This document shows positions 27,821-32,058 of a stretch of 64,000 nucleotides of DNA, piece by piece. Under the pieces are notes generated by a model, which saw only the letters and a list, made by a program, of their open reading frames with translations, was not told where the DNA came from and did not search any database. The DNA is from Opitutaceae bacterium (GTDB lineage Bacteria; Verrucomicrobiota; Verrucomicrobiia; Opitutales; Opitutaceae). The stretch is taken from NCBI GenBank assembly GCA_030648295.1, contig JAUSID010000074.1, forward strand, positions 1-64,000, written 5' to 3'. The number at the start of each line of letters is the position of its first letter. Position 1 is the stretch's first letter. The position numbers and the translations under genes were made by a program.

Positions 27821-29107
27821 ATGAAAACGAAACTCACCTCCCGGCACGGCCTGACGCGCCGTTCGTTTCTCAAGAAATCACTCGTTGCGGGCGGCGGGGT
27901 CATGCTGCCGATGATTGTGCCGGGACGCGTCCTTGGCCGTGACGGCGGCGTCGCCCCGAGCAACCGGGTTGTCATGGGCGGTTTCGGCATCGGCCGGCGC
28001 GGTGGCAGCGATCTCGAAGTTCTGCTCCACGAACCCGACGTGCAATTCATCGCCATCGCGGACGTCCGTGACGAACGGCGCAAGGCGGTGAAGGAGATGG
28101 CCGACCAGAAGAACGGCAACAAGGACTGCGCGATGTACCGCGATTTCCGCGAGCTGCTCGCGCGAAGGGACATCGACGCGCTGCTCATCGCCACGGGTGA
28201 TCGGTGGCACTCGCTCGCCTCGATCCTGACCGCGAAGGCGGGCAAGGACATGTATTGCGAGAAACCCTGCTCGACCAACATCGCCGACAGTGTCGCCCTC
28301 GCGGAAACGATGCGCCGCTACGGTCGCGTGTATCAGGCGGGCACGCAGCGGCGCAACGTGGGCAACTTCGTTTTTGCCGCGGAGCTCGCGCGCTCGGGCA
28401 AGCTGGGCAAGCTGCACACCGTTCACGCCAACACGCTCGCCCCCGGCACGAAGCTGGAGTGGCTGCCGGCCGAGCCGCTGCCGGCCAGAGAGGTCTGCGA
28501 TTGGGACATGTGGCTCGGTCCCTGTCCGTGGCGGCCGTATAACTCCCGGTACGTCGCGGGAGGGTGGCGCAATCACTTCGATTTCCACGGCGGCGGGATC
28601 CTCGAGTGGGGATCGCACACGATCGACTTGTGCCAGTGGGCGAACGACGCGGACAAGACCGTGCCGATCGAATACGAGCCCACGGCGCAGGGCTGCATCG
28701 CACGGTATGCGAATGGCGTGAAACTCGTCATGCGCGAATCCGGCTGGATGGGCCTCGGCACGTGCAGCGTGCGATACGAGGGCGACGAAGGGTGGGTCGA
28801 GACGGGCGATCGCGGCGAGTTCAAGGTCTATCCCGAATCGTTGCGCGGTGAACGCGTGATCAAGGCCGGTGCCGGGACGCATCCGGGCAGTCATCTCCGC
28901 GAATTCCTCGACTGCGTCAAATCAAGGGCGCTCACCTCCGCGAATGGCGACGTCGCCTGCCAGTCGCACATCGCCAGTCACGCGGCTTACATCTCGTGGC
29001 AGCTCGGCCGCAAGCTCAGTTACGATCCGGTGAAGAACGAATTCATCCGCGACGAGGAGGCGAACCGCATGCGCGCCCGCGCGAAGCGTGAGCCATGGCG
29101 GGTCTGA
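27821..29107 (+). CDS. Tat-exported Gfo/Idh/MocA family oxidoreductase (second copy)
   Basis: A 428-residue oxidoreductase with a twin-arginine signal (TRRSFLKKSLVAGGG) and the Rossmann motif GGFGIGRRGG near residues 53-62. The CEKP motif follows at about 146-149 and a GSHTIDLCQW segment corresponds to the metal/substrate region. It ends with the conserved RMRARAKREPW tail that the first copy (14270-15553) also has, so the two are paralogues. It is followed 50 bp downstream by a HEAT protein, repeating the gene order of the first copy. The predicted function is oxidation of a sugar or sugar derivative in the periplasm. Confidence 0.88.
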   Translation: MKTKLTSRHGLTRRSFLKKSLVAGGGVMLPMIVPGRVLGRDGGVAPSNRVVMGGFGIGRRGGSDLEVLLHEPDVQFIAIADVRDERRKAVKEMADQKNGNKDCAMYRDFRELLARRDIDALLIATGDRWHSLASILTAKAGKDMYCEKPCSTNIADSVALAETMRRYGRVYQAGTQRRNVGNFVFAAELARSGKLGKLHTVHANTLAPGTKLEWLPAEPLPAREVCDWDMWLGPCPWRPYNSRYVAGGWRNHFDFHGGGILEWGSHTIDLCQWANDADKTVPIEYEPTAQGCIARYANGVKLVMRESGWMGLGTCSVRYEGDEGWVETGDRGEFKVYPESLRGERVIKAGAGTHPGSHLREFLDCVKSRALTSANGDVACQSHIASHAAYISWQLGRKLSYDPVKNEFIRDEEANRMRARAKREPWRV

Positions 29108-29157
29108 CGATCGCCGCACGAGCAACCATCATCATCACGAGGAAAGAAAGGATCAAA

Positions 29158-31170
29158 ATGTCTTTTACAAAAACCAGTCTGAAACTCGCCGTGGCCGCGC
29201 TGCTCGCGGTGTCGGCGCCGTCGTTCGTTGCTGCCCAGGGCGAACCGATCAAGAGCAGCGTTCCGCGGCCGCAGGAGGTGCGCGCGCTGATTGCCACGCT
29301 CCAGTCCGCGAGCACCACGCAGCATGAGAAGGTCGTGGCCTGCCATCGTCTGGCCATCATTGGCACGAAGGAGGCGGTGCCCGCGCTGGCGGCGCTGCTG
29401 GGCGACGAAAAACTCGCGCACTACGCGCGGCACGCGCTCGAGCCGATGACGGAGCCCGAGGCCGGCGCCGCGCTGCGCGGCGCGCTCGGCCAGCTCCAGG
29501 GATCGCTGCTGATCGGCGTCGTGAACACGATCGGATTCCGGCGCGACGCGCAGGCGACGGCGGCACTCGTGCGGCTGCTGGACCATGGCGATGAAGGCAT
29601 TTCCACGGCGGCCGCGGCGGCGTTGGGCCGGATTGGGAGTGTCGAAGCGGCGAAAAAACTTCAGGACACGCTCGGCCACGCGACCGGTGCCCGCCAGCTG
29701 GCCCTGGCGGACGCGAGTCTCACCTGTGCGGATACGCTGGTCGTGAATCGGAAGCGAACCGAAGCGGCGGCGATTTATGATCGCATGTGCGGTTCGGGAT
29801 TCCCCCATCACATCCGCACTGCGGCGATGTGCGGCGCGATTACGTCGCGCGAATCCGGGGGGATTCCGCTGCTGGTGAAACAGCTCCAGGGCCAGGATAG
29901 GGCGATGCTGGCGGCGGGCTGGCGTGCGGCCCGCGAGTTGAAGGGCGCAAACGTGACCAGGGCGCTGGCAGCGGAACTGCCGAAACTTCCGGCGGAAAAA
30001 CAGGTGCTGCTCGTCCAGGTGCTGGGTGACCGCAACGATAGAACCGCGCTGCCGGCGGTGCTCGAGGCGGCCAACAGCAGGGCGGAAAATGTCCGCGTGG
30101 TCGCGCTTCAGGTTTTGCCCCGCGTTGACGACGGCAAGTCCGGCCAGGCCGTGCTGCTGCGCGCCGCCACGGCGGGACGCAGCCCGGCGGAAACGAATGC
30201 GGCCCTCGCGAGCCTCGCCCAGATAGGCGGCGCGGACACGGACGCGAAAATTCTTGCCATCCTTGGCGCGGTCCAGCCGGCAATGCGCGTGAAACTAATC
30301 GCGCTGCTCGGGCAGCGGCGCGCGCAGAGCGCCACGGGCGAGCTGCTGAAGCTCGCCGGCGGCAACGACGCCGAAATCAGCAAGGCGGCGTTTCGGGCGT
30401 TGGCGCAGGTCGCGCCGCCGTCGCAGCTGCCCGAGCTGATCCGCCTCTCGACCGCGTGCAAGGACGATGCGGTCAAGGTGCCGGCCGACCTCGCGGTTTA
30501 TGCCGTGTCGATGAAAATCACCCCGGCGGAGAAGCGCGCCGAGCCGGTCCTCGCGGCGCTGCGGTCCGCGCCCGATGCGCCGGCGAAGTGTTCGTTGTTG
30601 CGGCCACTGGGTGCGATCGTGAAGGCGACGGGGGGCAGTGCGCAGGCTTTGGATACGATCACCGCGGCGTTGAACGATCGCGATCCGCAGGTGCGCACCG
30701 CGGCCCTCCGCTGCGTGGCCGACTGGCCGGATGCCCGGCCCGCCGCGCTCATGCTCGACATCTTCAAAGGCGACCCGGATCCCGTGCATCGCGAGCTGGC
30801 CTTGCGCGGTGGAGTACGGATGGCTGCGAGCGTGGCGGCGGGCCGCGACTCGACGAAGCTCGATGCGCTCGCCTGGCTGACGCAGGCGAACCGCGGTGTC
30901 CGCTCGAAGGAGGAGAAGCTGGTGATCGTGTCGGGGCTGGGCAGCCTCAACCGGATTGAAGGGCTGCAGATGCTTCAGCCTTACCTGGCCGAACCGGCGG
31001 TGCAGACCGAAGCGGAACTTGCGGTGATGGAGCTGGCGCAGTCACTCGCCGCCACGCCGCATGCCGCAACCGCCAGGAGCGCGCTGGAAAAGATCACGAA
31101 GACGACGAAGGACGCGGACGTCCGCCGTAGAGCCGGCAAGATGGCGAAGGGCATGCAGCCAAGAACGTGA
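29158..31170 (+). CDS. HEAT-repeat protein (paired with second Gfo/Idh oxidoreductase)
   Basis: A 670-residue exported protein (signal peptide SLKLAVAALLAVSAPSFVAA) of repeated helical HEAT/PBS-lyase-type units, for example AVPALAALLG, AAAAALGRIGS and TAALRCVADW. No catalytic residues are evident. A good ribosome site (AGGAAAGAAAGG) precedes the ATG at 29158. The 51-bp spacing from the oxidoreductase suggests one transcript, which would end at the terminator at 31227-31250. It is longer than its analogue at 12439-14205 but built the same way. Confidence 0.82.
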   Translation: MSFTKTSLKLAVAALLAVSAPSFVAAQGEPIKSSVPRPQEVRALIATLQSASTTQHEKVVACHRLAIIGTKEAVPALAALLGDEKLAHYARHALEPMTEPEAGAALRGALGQLQGSLLIGVVNTIGFRRDAQATAALVRLLDHGDEGISTAAAAALGRIGSVEAAKKLQDTLGHATGARQLALADASLTCADTLVVNRKRTEAAAIYDRMCGSGFPHHIRTAAMCGAITSRESGGIPLLVKQLQGQDRAMLAAGWRAARELKGANVTRALAAELPKLPAEKQVLLVQVLGDRNDRTALPAVLEAANSRAENVRVVALQVLPRVDDGKSGQAVLLRAATAGRSPAETNAALASLAQIGGADTDAKILAILGAVQPAMRVKLIALLGQRRAQSATGELLKLAGGNDAEISKAAFRALAQVAPPSQLPELIRLSTACKDDAVKVPADLAVYAVSMKITPAEKRAEPVLAALRSAPDAPAKCSLLRPLGAIVKATGGSAQALDTITAALNDRDPQVRTAALRCVADWPDARPAALMLDIFKGDPDPVHRELALRGGVRMAASVAAGRDSTKLDALAWLTQANRGVRSKEEKLVIVSGLGSLNRIEGLQMLQPYLAEPAVQTEAELAVMELAQSLAATPHAATARSALEKITKTTKDADVRRRAGKMAKGMQPRT

Positions 31171-31356: not shown

Positions 31357-32058
31357 CTACTTGTTCACCCGGAAGTTCACCACGTCGTAGTCCTGAATCA
31401 CATACGCGCGTTGCTCGAGGCGAAGCTTGCCCGCGTGCTTGGCTTCCTTCTCGCCGCCGGCGGTAATGAAGTCGTCCCAGCCGATCACCTCGGCGCGAAT
31501 GAAACTCTTGAGCAGGTCGGTGTGAATCGTGGCTGCCGCTTCGGGCGCGGTCAGCCCACGCTTGATCGGCCACGCGCGGTTCTCGATCCCACCGACCGTC
31601 AGGAAGCAAATCTGTCCACTCTCCGCCAGCACCCGCACGAGGAATTCATCGAAGTGGGCGAGCTCCTCTGCGGTGGCGACGACCACGGGCTTCGCGGTTA
31701 GAAACGCATGCGCTTCCGTCGCCTGCCACTCGGCGGCGGTCAGGCCCGCGTCCGTGAGAAAGTGATCGGCCTCGAGTGCGGCCTTCATCTTCTGCAATAC
31801 GGCGGCCTCGGCGGGCGCCGGATTCCGCGCCAGCCGCGTCTCCACGAATTCCAAATCCTGCAGCACCAATTCGAGCCGGCTGTCGGCCGACGTCACGATC
31901 ACGTCCGCGGTGAGCGAATCCTCGGGGCCGACGACGTCCACCTGCGCGTACACTTTTTTCTTCGCCTCGACCAGTTTGTCGGCCTGATCCAGTCGCGGAT
32001 CCTTCACGTTGTGCTTGCCGGGGTGAACGCCACTGACGCCGTAAATGCAGATTTTCAT
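31357..32058 (-). CDS. YchF/Obg-like protein lacking the GTPase core (DUF933/TGS C-terminus)
   Basis: A 233-residue protein. The C-terminal third (about residues 150-233: GIENRAWPIKRGLTAPEAA, IHTDLLKSFIRAEVI, AGKLRLEQRAYVIQDYDVV) is clearly the TGS-like DUF933 domain of the ATPase/GTPase YchF. The middle keeps YchF landmarks (DPRLDQADKLV at about 20-30, DLEFVETRL at 68-76 and FLTAKPVVVA at 119-128). The N-terminus has no P-loop: the GLPNVGKS motif is replaced by a GVSGVHPGKHN stretch and the G3 segment is absent. It likely cannot bind nucleotide. It follows two beta-propeller genes on the same strand, 92 bp after the nearer one. Confidence 0.8.
   Translation of the reverse strand: MKICIYGVSGVHPGKHNVKDPRLDQADKLVEAKKKVYAQVDVVGPEDSLTADVIVTSADSRLELVLQDLEFVETRLARNPAPAEAAVLQKMKAALEADHFLTDAGLTAAEWQATEAHAFLTAKPVVVATAEELAHFDEFLVRVLAESGQICFLTVGGIENRAWPIKRGLTAPEAAATIHTDLLKSFIRAEVIGWDDFITAGGEKEAKHAGKLRLEQRAYVIQDYDVVNFRVNK

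Follow-up and report, generated by a model that had tools for sequence, protein, structure and literature searches.

YchF/OLA1 (TIGR00092) is a member of the Obg family of TRAFAC P-loop NTPases. It is called universally conserved in the accessible part of PMC8779481, yet its role and the purpose of its ATPase cycle are described there as unsettled. The same text has the helical arm and the TGS domain forming a positively charged cleft that is thought to favour RNA (their exact roles being given as unknown), and describes the N-terminal ATPase domain of Escherichia coli YchF as a major ribosome contact. According to the available portion of PMC9748339, the TGS domain of rice YchF1 binds 26S rRNA, and in AtYchF1 ppGpp occupies the normal nucleotide site and inhibits rRNA binding. 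For the E. coli protein, the excerpted text of PMC8138138 reports cross-links of uS5 and uS8 with N20, which is close to the ATP site, and none of these with the helical-arm positions R146 and A160. A 2025 survey of ribosome biogenesis factors treats YchF as broadly conserved, and Verrucomicrobia and Kiritimatiellae are not mentioned in the part of it that was accessible (PMC12641178); terms for ATPase-mutant data were not found in the accessible text of PMC11237923. No description of a reduced YchF of the kind reported here was found in the open-access PMC literature on YchF, OLA1 or DUF933, represented mostly by titles and the beginnings of abstracts.

A reduced YchF in the window

The first-pass annotation of the window (the whole stretch of DNA analysed, 64,000 nucleotides of an Opitutaceae genome) had described a YchF-like protein in which the C-terminal DUF933/TGS domain and several YchF landmarks are intact. 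This is borne out: residues 150–232 of the protein, which we call mini-YchF, match PF06071 (YchF-GTPase_C/DUF933) with E 2.4e-30 and 104.9 bits, above the Pfam gathering score of 27, and the protein contains the landmarks DPRLDQADK, DLEFVETRL and FLTAKPV, each aligned to its counterpart in canonical YchF. The Pfam TGS model gives a weak match of 17.1 bits, below its cut-off of 22.2, and the NCBIfam equivalog TIGR00092 scores 124.3 bits, short of its cut-off of 279.2. Seven of the eight distinct sequences matched in the PDB are YchF/OLA1, the eighth being a weak match (E 0.38) to an unrelated chain; an NCBIfam match to succinate-CoA ligase (E 0.063) was taken as chance and rejected as the identity of the protein. 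A normal ychF was sought elsewhere in the genome and was found as its one other PF06071 gene, a full-length 367-aa gene with GLPNVGKS on contig C245, so that mini-YchF is a paralogue in its own genome. A pseudogene, a frameshift or an assembly error, the last two of which had been named as what could undo the annotation, was ruled out by this intact canonical copy together with the 29 mini rows of near-constant length and the dN/dS values given below; no sign of a frameshift or misassembly was seen. We conclude that the window gene is a real, conserved gene for a reduced YchF.

Relative to the intact YchF of the same genome, which served as the reference for the gap map, six internal gaps account for 133 missing aa, in addition to the initial Met, with gap borders that are alignment-dependent (Table 1).

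Table 1. Features of the mini-YchF gene, its protein and the adjoining genes (positions in the window)
Feature	Position	Strand	Description and basis
Mini-YchF gene	31357..32058	-	233 aa, ATG start (ORF, PF06071 match, relatives in genome collection)
G-domain remnant, residues 1-57	31888..32058	-	strands 1-4 and DPRL helix, without P-loop and switches (model secondary structure, alignment)
Gap 1 junction, after residue 9	32031..32032	-	canonical 11-37 missing: P-loop, alpha1, switch I, FCTI cysteine (alignment)
GKHNV, residues 14-18	32005..32019	-	forms strand 2 in the model; no Walker A motif (model, alignment)
Gap 2 junction, after residue 47	31917..31918	-	canonical 76-93 (switch II) missing (alignment)
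Gap 3 junction, after residue 56	31890..31891	-	canonical 103-124, segment after beta4, missing (alignment)
Helical (coiled-coil) arm, residues 58-118	31705..31887	-	kept except tip (model, alignment)
Gap 4 junction, after residue 81	31815..31816	-	canonical 150-158, coiled-coil tip, missing (alignment)
Gap 5 junction, after residue 129	31671..31672	-	canonical 207-244, G4 through G5, missing (alignment)
Gap 6 junction, after residue 138	31644..31645	-	canonical 254-272 missing (alignment)
YchF C-terminal DUF933/TGS domain, residues 150-232	31363..31611	-	kept (PF06071, structure comparison)
HEAT-repeat gene adjoining mini-YchF	29095-31170		
Oxidoreductase-like gene next to HEAT-repeat gene	27821-29107		

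The first-pass annotation had the P-loop and G3 regions replaced or deleted; in the alignment this extends to G1, G2, G3, G4 and G5, all of which lie in gaps or replaced stretches, and the five motifs are absent from 29/29 mini rows. The rows were compared with 16 divergent rows (described below) and with 42 canonical rows; the latter had been selected on their P-loop (GLPNVGKST), so that only FCTI and DIAGL are independent there. On this footing the G1 P-loop GxxxxGK[ST] occurs in 0/29 minis, 9/16 divergent rows and 42/42 canonical rows, and the G3/switch II motif DxAGL in 0/29, 0/16 and 42/42 (as DIAGL), respectively. G4 (NxxE) is an alignment gap in all 29 minis, as is the Cys35 redox switch (FCTI), which is present in all 42 canonical rows. 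GKH was considered as a Walker A relic and rejected, since it aligns with canonical GVVTVPDPRL, past switch I, and forms strand 2 of the model. A basic residue directly follows G14 in 27/29 mini rows (T in the two others) and is common to both mini types; it is rare in the other groups, one divergent row (L057) having R there. The C-terminal residues T154, G156, E159, W163, H179, D181, F186, I187 and Y219 are common to all four groups at 85% or more. Net charge is negative (−8 for the window protein, its C-terminal part being +1; median −5 for the minis and −14.5 for canonical YchF). At the sequence level mini-YchF has none of the five nucleotide-binding motifs and neither switch region, and it retains the strand scaffold, helical arm and TGS domain.

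An AlphaFold2 model of the window protein, built from 9 sequences, has a mean pLDDT of 80.1 and a pTM of 0.76; ten-residue means reach at least 90 at residues 1–20 and 41–110, and are low (43–68) over much of the C-terminal domain. The nearest solved structures are YchF/OLA1 (1jal_B, Foldseek TM 0.72 by query length), with VIA giving Z 16.3 for 1jal_B (228 aligned, 3.3 Å) and Z 15.2 for 8kie_y (233 aligned, 3.5 Å). The model shows the three-part fold of YchF/OLA1 (G-like core, helical arm, TGS), at low confidence in the C-terminal part. The earlier description of a protein that has lost its GTPase core thus needs to be divided: the nucleotide site of YchF is absent, but the strands remain and the model still matches YchF. 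The same holds for the question, raised in that description, of whether a model could accommodate a nucleotide site, as the G-like core keeps its strands but the site known in YchF is absent from it.

Distribution and selection

The wide scan of the genome collection relied on short peptides taken from the window protein, which restricts it to close relatives; it gave 8 loci with 58–86% identity over the full length, all titled Verrucomicrobiota, a similarity well outside what chance would produce. Profile searches were made within the phylum. A full-length mini-YchF is present in 9/100 genomes of the window's family (its own included), each of which contains a further match too, located in an open frame at least 369 aa long; these second genes were sequence-checked in two genomes (the window's own and G039/G461, apparently one genome) and both carry GLPNVGKS and DIAGL. 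With a profile of the N-terminal half, 85 of 387 genomes of the phylum matched at E 1e-4. Matches in 14 of these cover positions 1–147 or more with E 1.6e-24 or better, and the next match (E 2.0e-11) covers positions 55–129 only, separating the minis from the rest. A broader profile gave 13 matches in the 387 genomes and no new mini, the window's own genome not being among the matches listed. No relative of mini-YchF was found in the viral collection. Plasmids gave 75 matching records, all below 60% identity and one covering at least 80% of the query; the 20 that were listed are annotated as ychF or lack annotation.

In all, 29 distinct mini rows (window included) of 229–235 aa were obtained, 16 of the window's type and 13 of another type, after leaving out two identical copies (L094 and L099) and two cut fragments (L096 and L122, dropped before alignment). 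Whole-gene dN/dS (NG86), which had been suggested as a check of conservation, is 0.049–0.141 in 18 of 19 pairs, the remaining pair being saturated; the values are rough because dS is 0.67–2.0 in the computed pairs, and they indicate purifying selection. Separate values for the N-terminal and C-terminal parts exist for 18 pairs; in 17 of them, all but L075–L074, the C-terminal part has the lower dN/dS. By these estimates purifying selection maintains the strand scaffold, the helical arm and the TGS domain.

Mini-YchF as the only YchF of a genome

A different situation is found in an order belonging to another class of the same phylum (that of genome G317). Of 100 genomes, 6 lack a PF06071 match and the other 94 have exactly one each; the single match is a mini in 13 and another form in 81, and the two occur together in 0/100. 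Eighty of the 81 non-mini genes lie in open frames of at least 366 aa and one is cut at 222 aa; 30 of the 81 were fetched, 29 being frames with GLPNVGKS and the thirtieth (L122) the cut one. The mini-only state is concentrated in particular families (f47, 8/8 sampled genomes; f60, 3/4; f32, 2/3). When the 13 mini-only genomes were searched with a canonical G domain as probe, nothing close came up (best E from 2.5e-11 to 3.9e-5), against 4.7e-52 or better in 5/5 controls, one of which is the probe's own source. A G domain encoded as a separate gene was rejected for the mini-only genomes, where the probe finds weak matches alone, similar to weak matches in the controls; these are presumably Obg and other GTPases. 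The mini-only genomes are drafts of 72–95% completeness, so that a single absence of canonical ychF would be weak, but 13 out of 13 is not. The first-pass annotation had taken mini-YchF as a paralogue that might act as a decoy. The paralogue part stands for the window's own genome, where a normal ychF is present, but not for the 13 genomes in which mini-YchF is the only PF06071 gene and in which it is therefore not a decoy beside YchF.

Among the 8 genomes behind named loci, 5 have a mini and a full canonical YchF, 2 a mini and YchF fragments, and 1 (Limisphaera, G460, completeness not given) a mini only. A UBA693 genome, which has a mini and a fragment of another YchF, also holds a 133-aa frame (L117:1312-1713, + strand) in which the TGS domain follows immediately on the YchF P-loop and FCTI region; an internal deletion may account for this, or a fault of assembly.

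Divergent forms and phylogeny

Of the 85 profile-matching genomes, 71 are non-mini, and from these the 16 next-best matches (L056-L071; INTERMEDIATES) were read. They are YchF-like and near-full length (341–357 aa after trimming). A G....GK loop is present in 16/16, followed by K or R in 7/16, and the altered P-loops include GAPRAGKT and GLPQVGKK; DxAGL is found in none, and we refer to them as switch II-less. The divergent gene is the only PF06071 gene in 15/16 genomes, G389 having a canonical one as well.

The tree of G-domain-less members in Verrucomicrobia that the first-pass annotation had suggested was built over 221 shared columns from 81 rows, the original 87 less six canonical near-copies. 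It places the mini and divergent rows together opposite the canonical rows (100/96), with each mini type as one clade (100/100) on a long stem branch (1.25 and 1.6). The window's type groups with exactly the seven divergent rows that have K or R in the loop (83/93, not starred); support for the seven as a group is only 81/15. Forcing all minis into one clade costs 1.66 log-likelihood units (p-AU 0.41), so that one origin is not rejected, and neither is a single clade of divergent rows (p-AU 0.19); holding the window's type with the canonical rows is disfavoured (p-AU 0.029). The series canonical, switch II-less, mini suggests a stepwise dismantling, with long branches in play. Synteny gave no sign of reduction in situ: in comparisons of four canonical with mini loci, some on short contigs, only ychF itself and weak matches were shared.

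Gene neighbourhood

Upstream of mini-YchF, and on its strand, the window has two PQQ_2 propeller genes; the HEAT-repeat gene converges on mini-YchF. The propeller setting had been singled out as unusual, but tblastn with both propellers found them at 0/26 other mini loci (some with short flanks), and a functional link to them was rejected on this count. The HEAT-repeat and oxidoreductase-like genes adjoin mini-YchF in 1/26 loci, that of a close relative (L005:9197-12536), where the pair is inverted relative to mini-YchF as compared with the window. From the list of neighbour clusters (25 clusters of at least three loci) no neighbourhood common to the whole mini family was found, and none conserved that points to translation; absence of neighbours at several mini loci is weak, because their contigs are cut short (4.5–13 kb). 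Neighbours are partly shared inside single genera (L072, L075 and L077; also L082, L084, L087 and L153). A superoxide dismutase gene lies just downstream of mini-YchF in L004 (8746-9447), and a Fur-family gene and ferritin lie nearby in L090 (3108-4153); such oxidative-stress neighbours were named at 2/27 loci with few neighbours typed, and were not used as evidence. Two distant lineages have a PF01008 gene adjoining mini-YchF, in one pointing the same way and in the other converging on it (L088:8666-9736, tested; L072:9755-10885, L075:10230-11363 and L077:7228-8379, assigned by clustering with L088).

Discussion

Mini-YchF may be a nucleotide-independent YchF that keeps RNA/ribosome binding without control by ATP, ppGpp or the cysteine, a reading of the sequences on which our judgement is evenly balanced. 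In its favour are the intact C-terminal domain and the residues it has in common with the other groups, the gap map, the constant length and low dN/dS, the YchF-like model, the published rRNA binding by the rice TGS domain with its ppGpp-inhibited counterpart in AtYchF1, and the pattern of replacement in the other order. It keeps the parts that form the cleft and loses the nucleotide site and the cysteine, from which we infer that the helical arm and TGS domain would still bind RNA or a ribosomal target; with neither the ATP/ppGpp site nor the Cys35-type redox switch left, that binding would now be constitutive. A mini that sits beside a YchF-length gene, as in the window's family, would then be a competitor of canonical YchF or provide a baseline of its activity free of regulation, and in the other order the lone mini would carry whatever YchF function needs no hydrolysis. 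The E. coli N20 cross-links count against such binding: the N20 stretch is missing from mini-YchF in the alignment, so that the known 30S contacts may be lost. Further points against it are the description of the N-terminal ATPase domain as a major ribosome contact, the negative net charge of the minis, the lack of a conserved neighbourhood pointing to translation, and the low confidence of the model over much of the C-terminal domain. For that one order we suggest, more tentatively, that the YchF ATPase has been replaced by a protein that has no nucleotide site and does YchF's indispensable work, the three forms being steps of one dismantling. Were this so, the core function would need no nucleotide, and ATP hydrolysis would be a regulatory layer on top of it.

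The missing N20 stretch (by alignment; the residue as reported in the accessible part of PMC8138138) also speaks for a different reading, in which the RNA/ribosome role has been lost and mini-YchF has taken a new partner and role, for example as a dedicated protein adaptor or as a regulator pairing with canonical YchF. The long stems of both mini clades point the same way, as does the patchy occurrence in the window's family (9/100 genomes), each time with a YchF-length gene alongside, but pairing with YchF cannot be the general role of mini-YchF because of the 13 genomes without a detected canonical YchF, and the C-terminal part has the lower dN/dS in nearly all pairs; we regard this reading as rather doubtful. 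Continued binding of a nucleotide or alarmone by mini-YchF, at a rebuilt site, is improbable: the strands persist in a confidently modelled scaffold and G14 is nearly always followed by a basic residue, but no phosphate, Mg2+ or base motif is left, and the normal nucleotide site, where AtYchF1 takes up ppGpp (PMC9748339, available portion), is absent. A relic decaying toward loss after the ATPase role became dispensable would fit the existence of several states and the internally deleted copy L117, but is already disfavoured and very improbable in view of dN/dS of 0.05–0.14, 29 distinct open-frame rows of 229–235 aa from many assemblies, and the basic residue after G14 that is rare in other groups.

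Mini-YchF is the only YchF found in some related bacteria, and so provides a natural test of the purpose of YchF's ATP switch. As a selected natural form without the known nucleotide site, sometimes the sole copy detected, it separates binding from the switch. Counts of PF06071 matches can also overstate the universality of the YchF ATPase.

Comparison with known systems

Mini-YchF is a reduced variant of the known YchF. It is homologous to YchF/OLA1 along its length and has, by model, the same fold (Z 16.3 to 1jal_B) with the same DUF933/TGS domain and helical arm, but differs in having no G1–G5 motifs, no switch I or II and no Cys35-type cysteine, and in missing 133 aa of internal sequence. 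The switch II-less proteins (L056-L071) come from the same phylum and share with the minis the side of the tree away from canonical YchF, whereas they are 341–357 aa long and all keep a G....GK loop, the minis having no P-loop. The degenerate septins described as pseudoGTPases (accessible part of PMC10731463) are similar in that the GTPase fold is kept and the GTPase function lost; unlike these eukaryotic proteins, mini-YchF misses whole motif segments and can be the sole copy in a genome.
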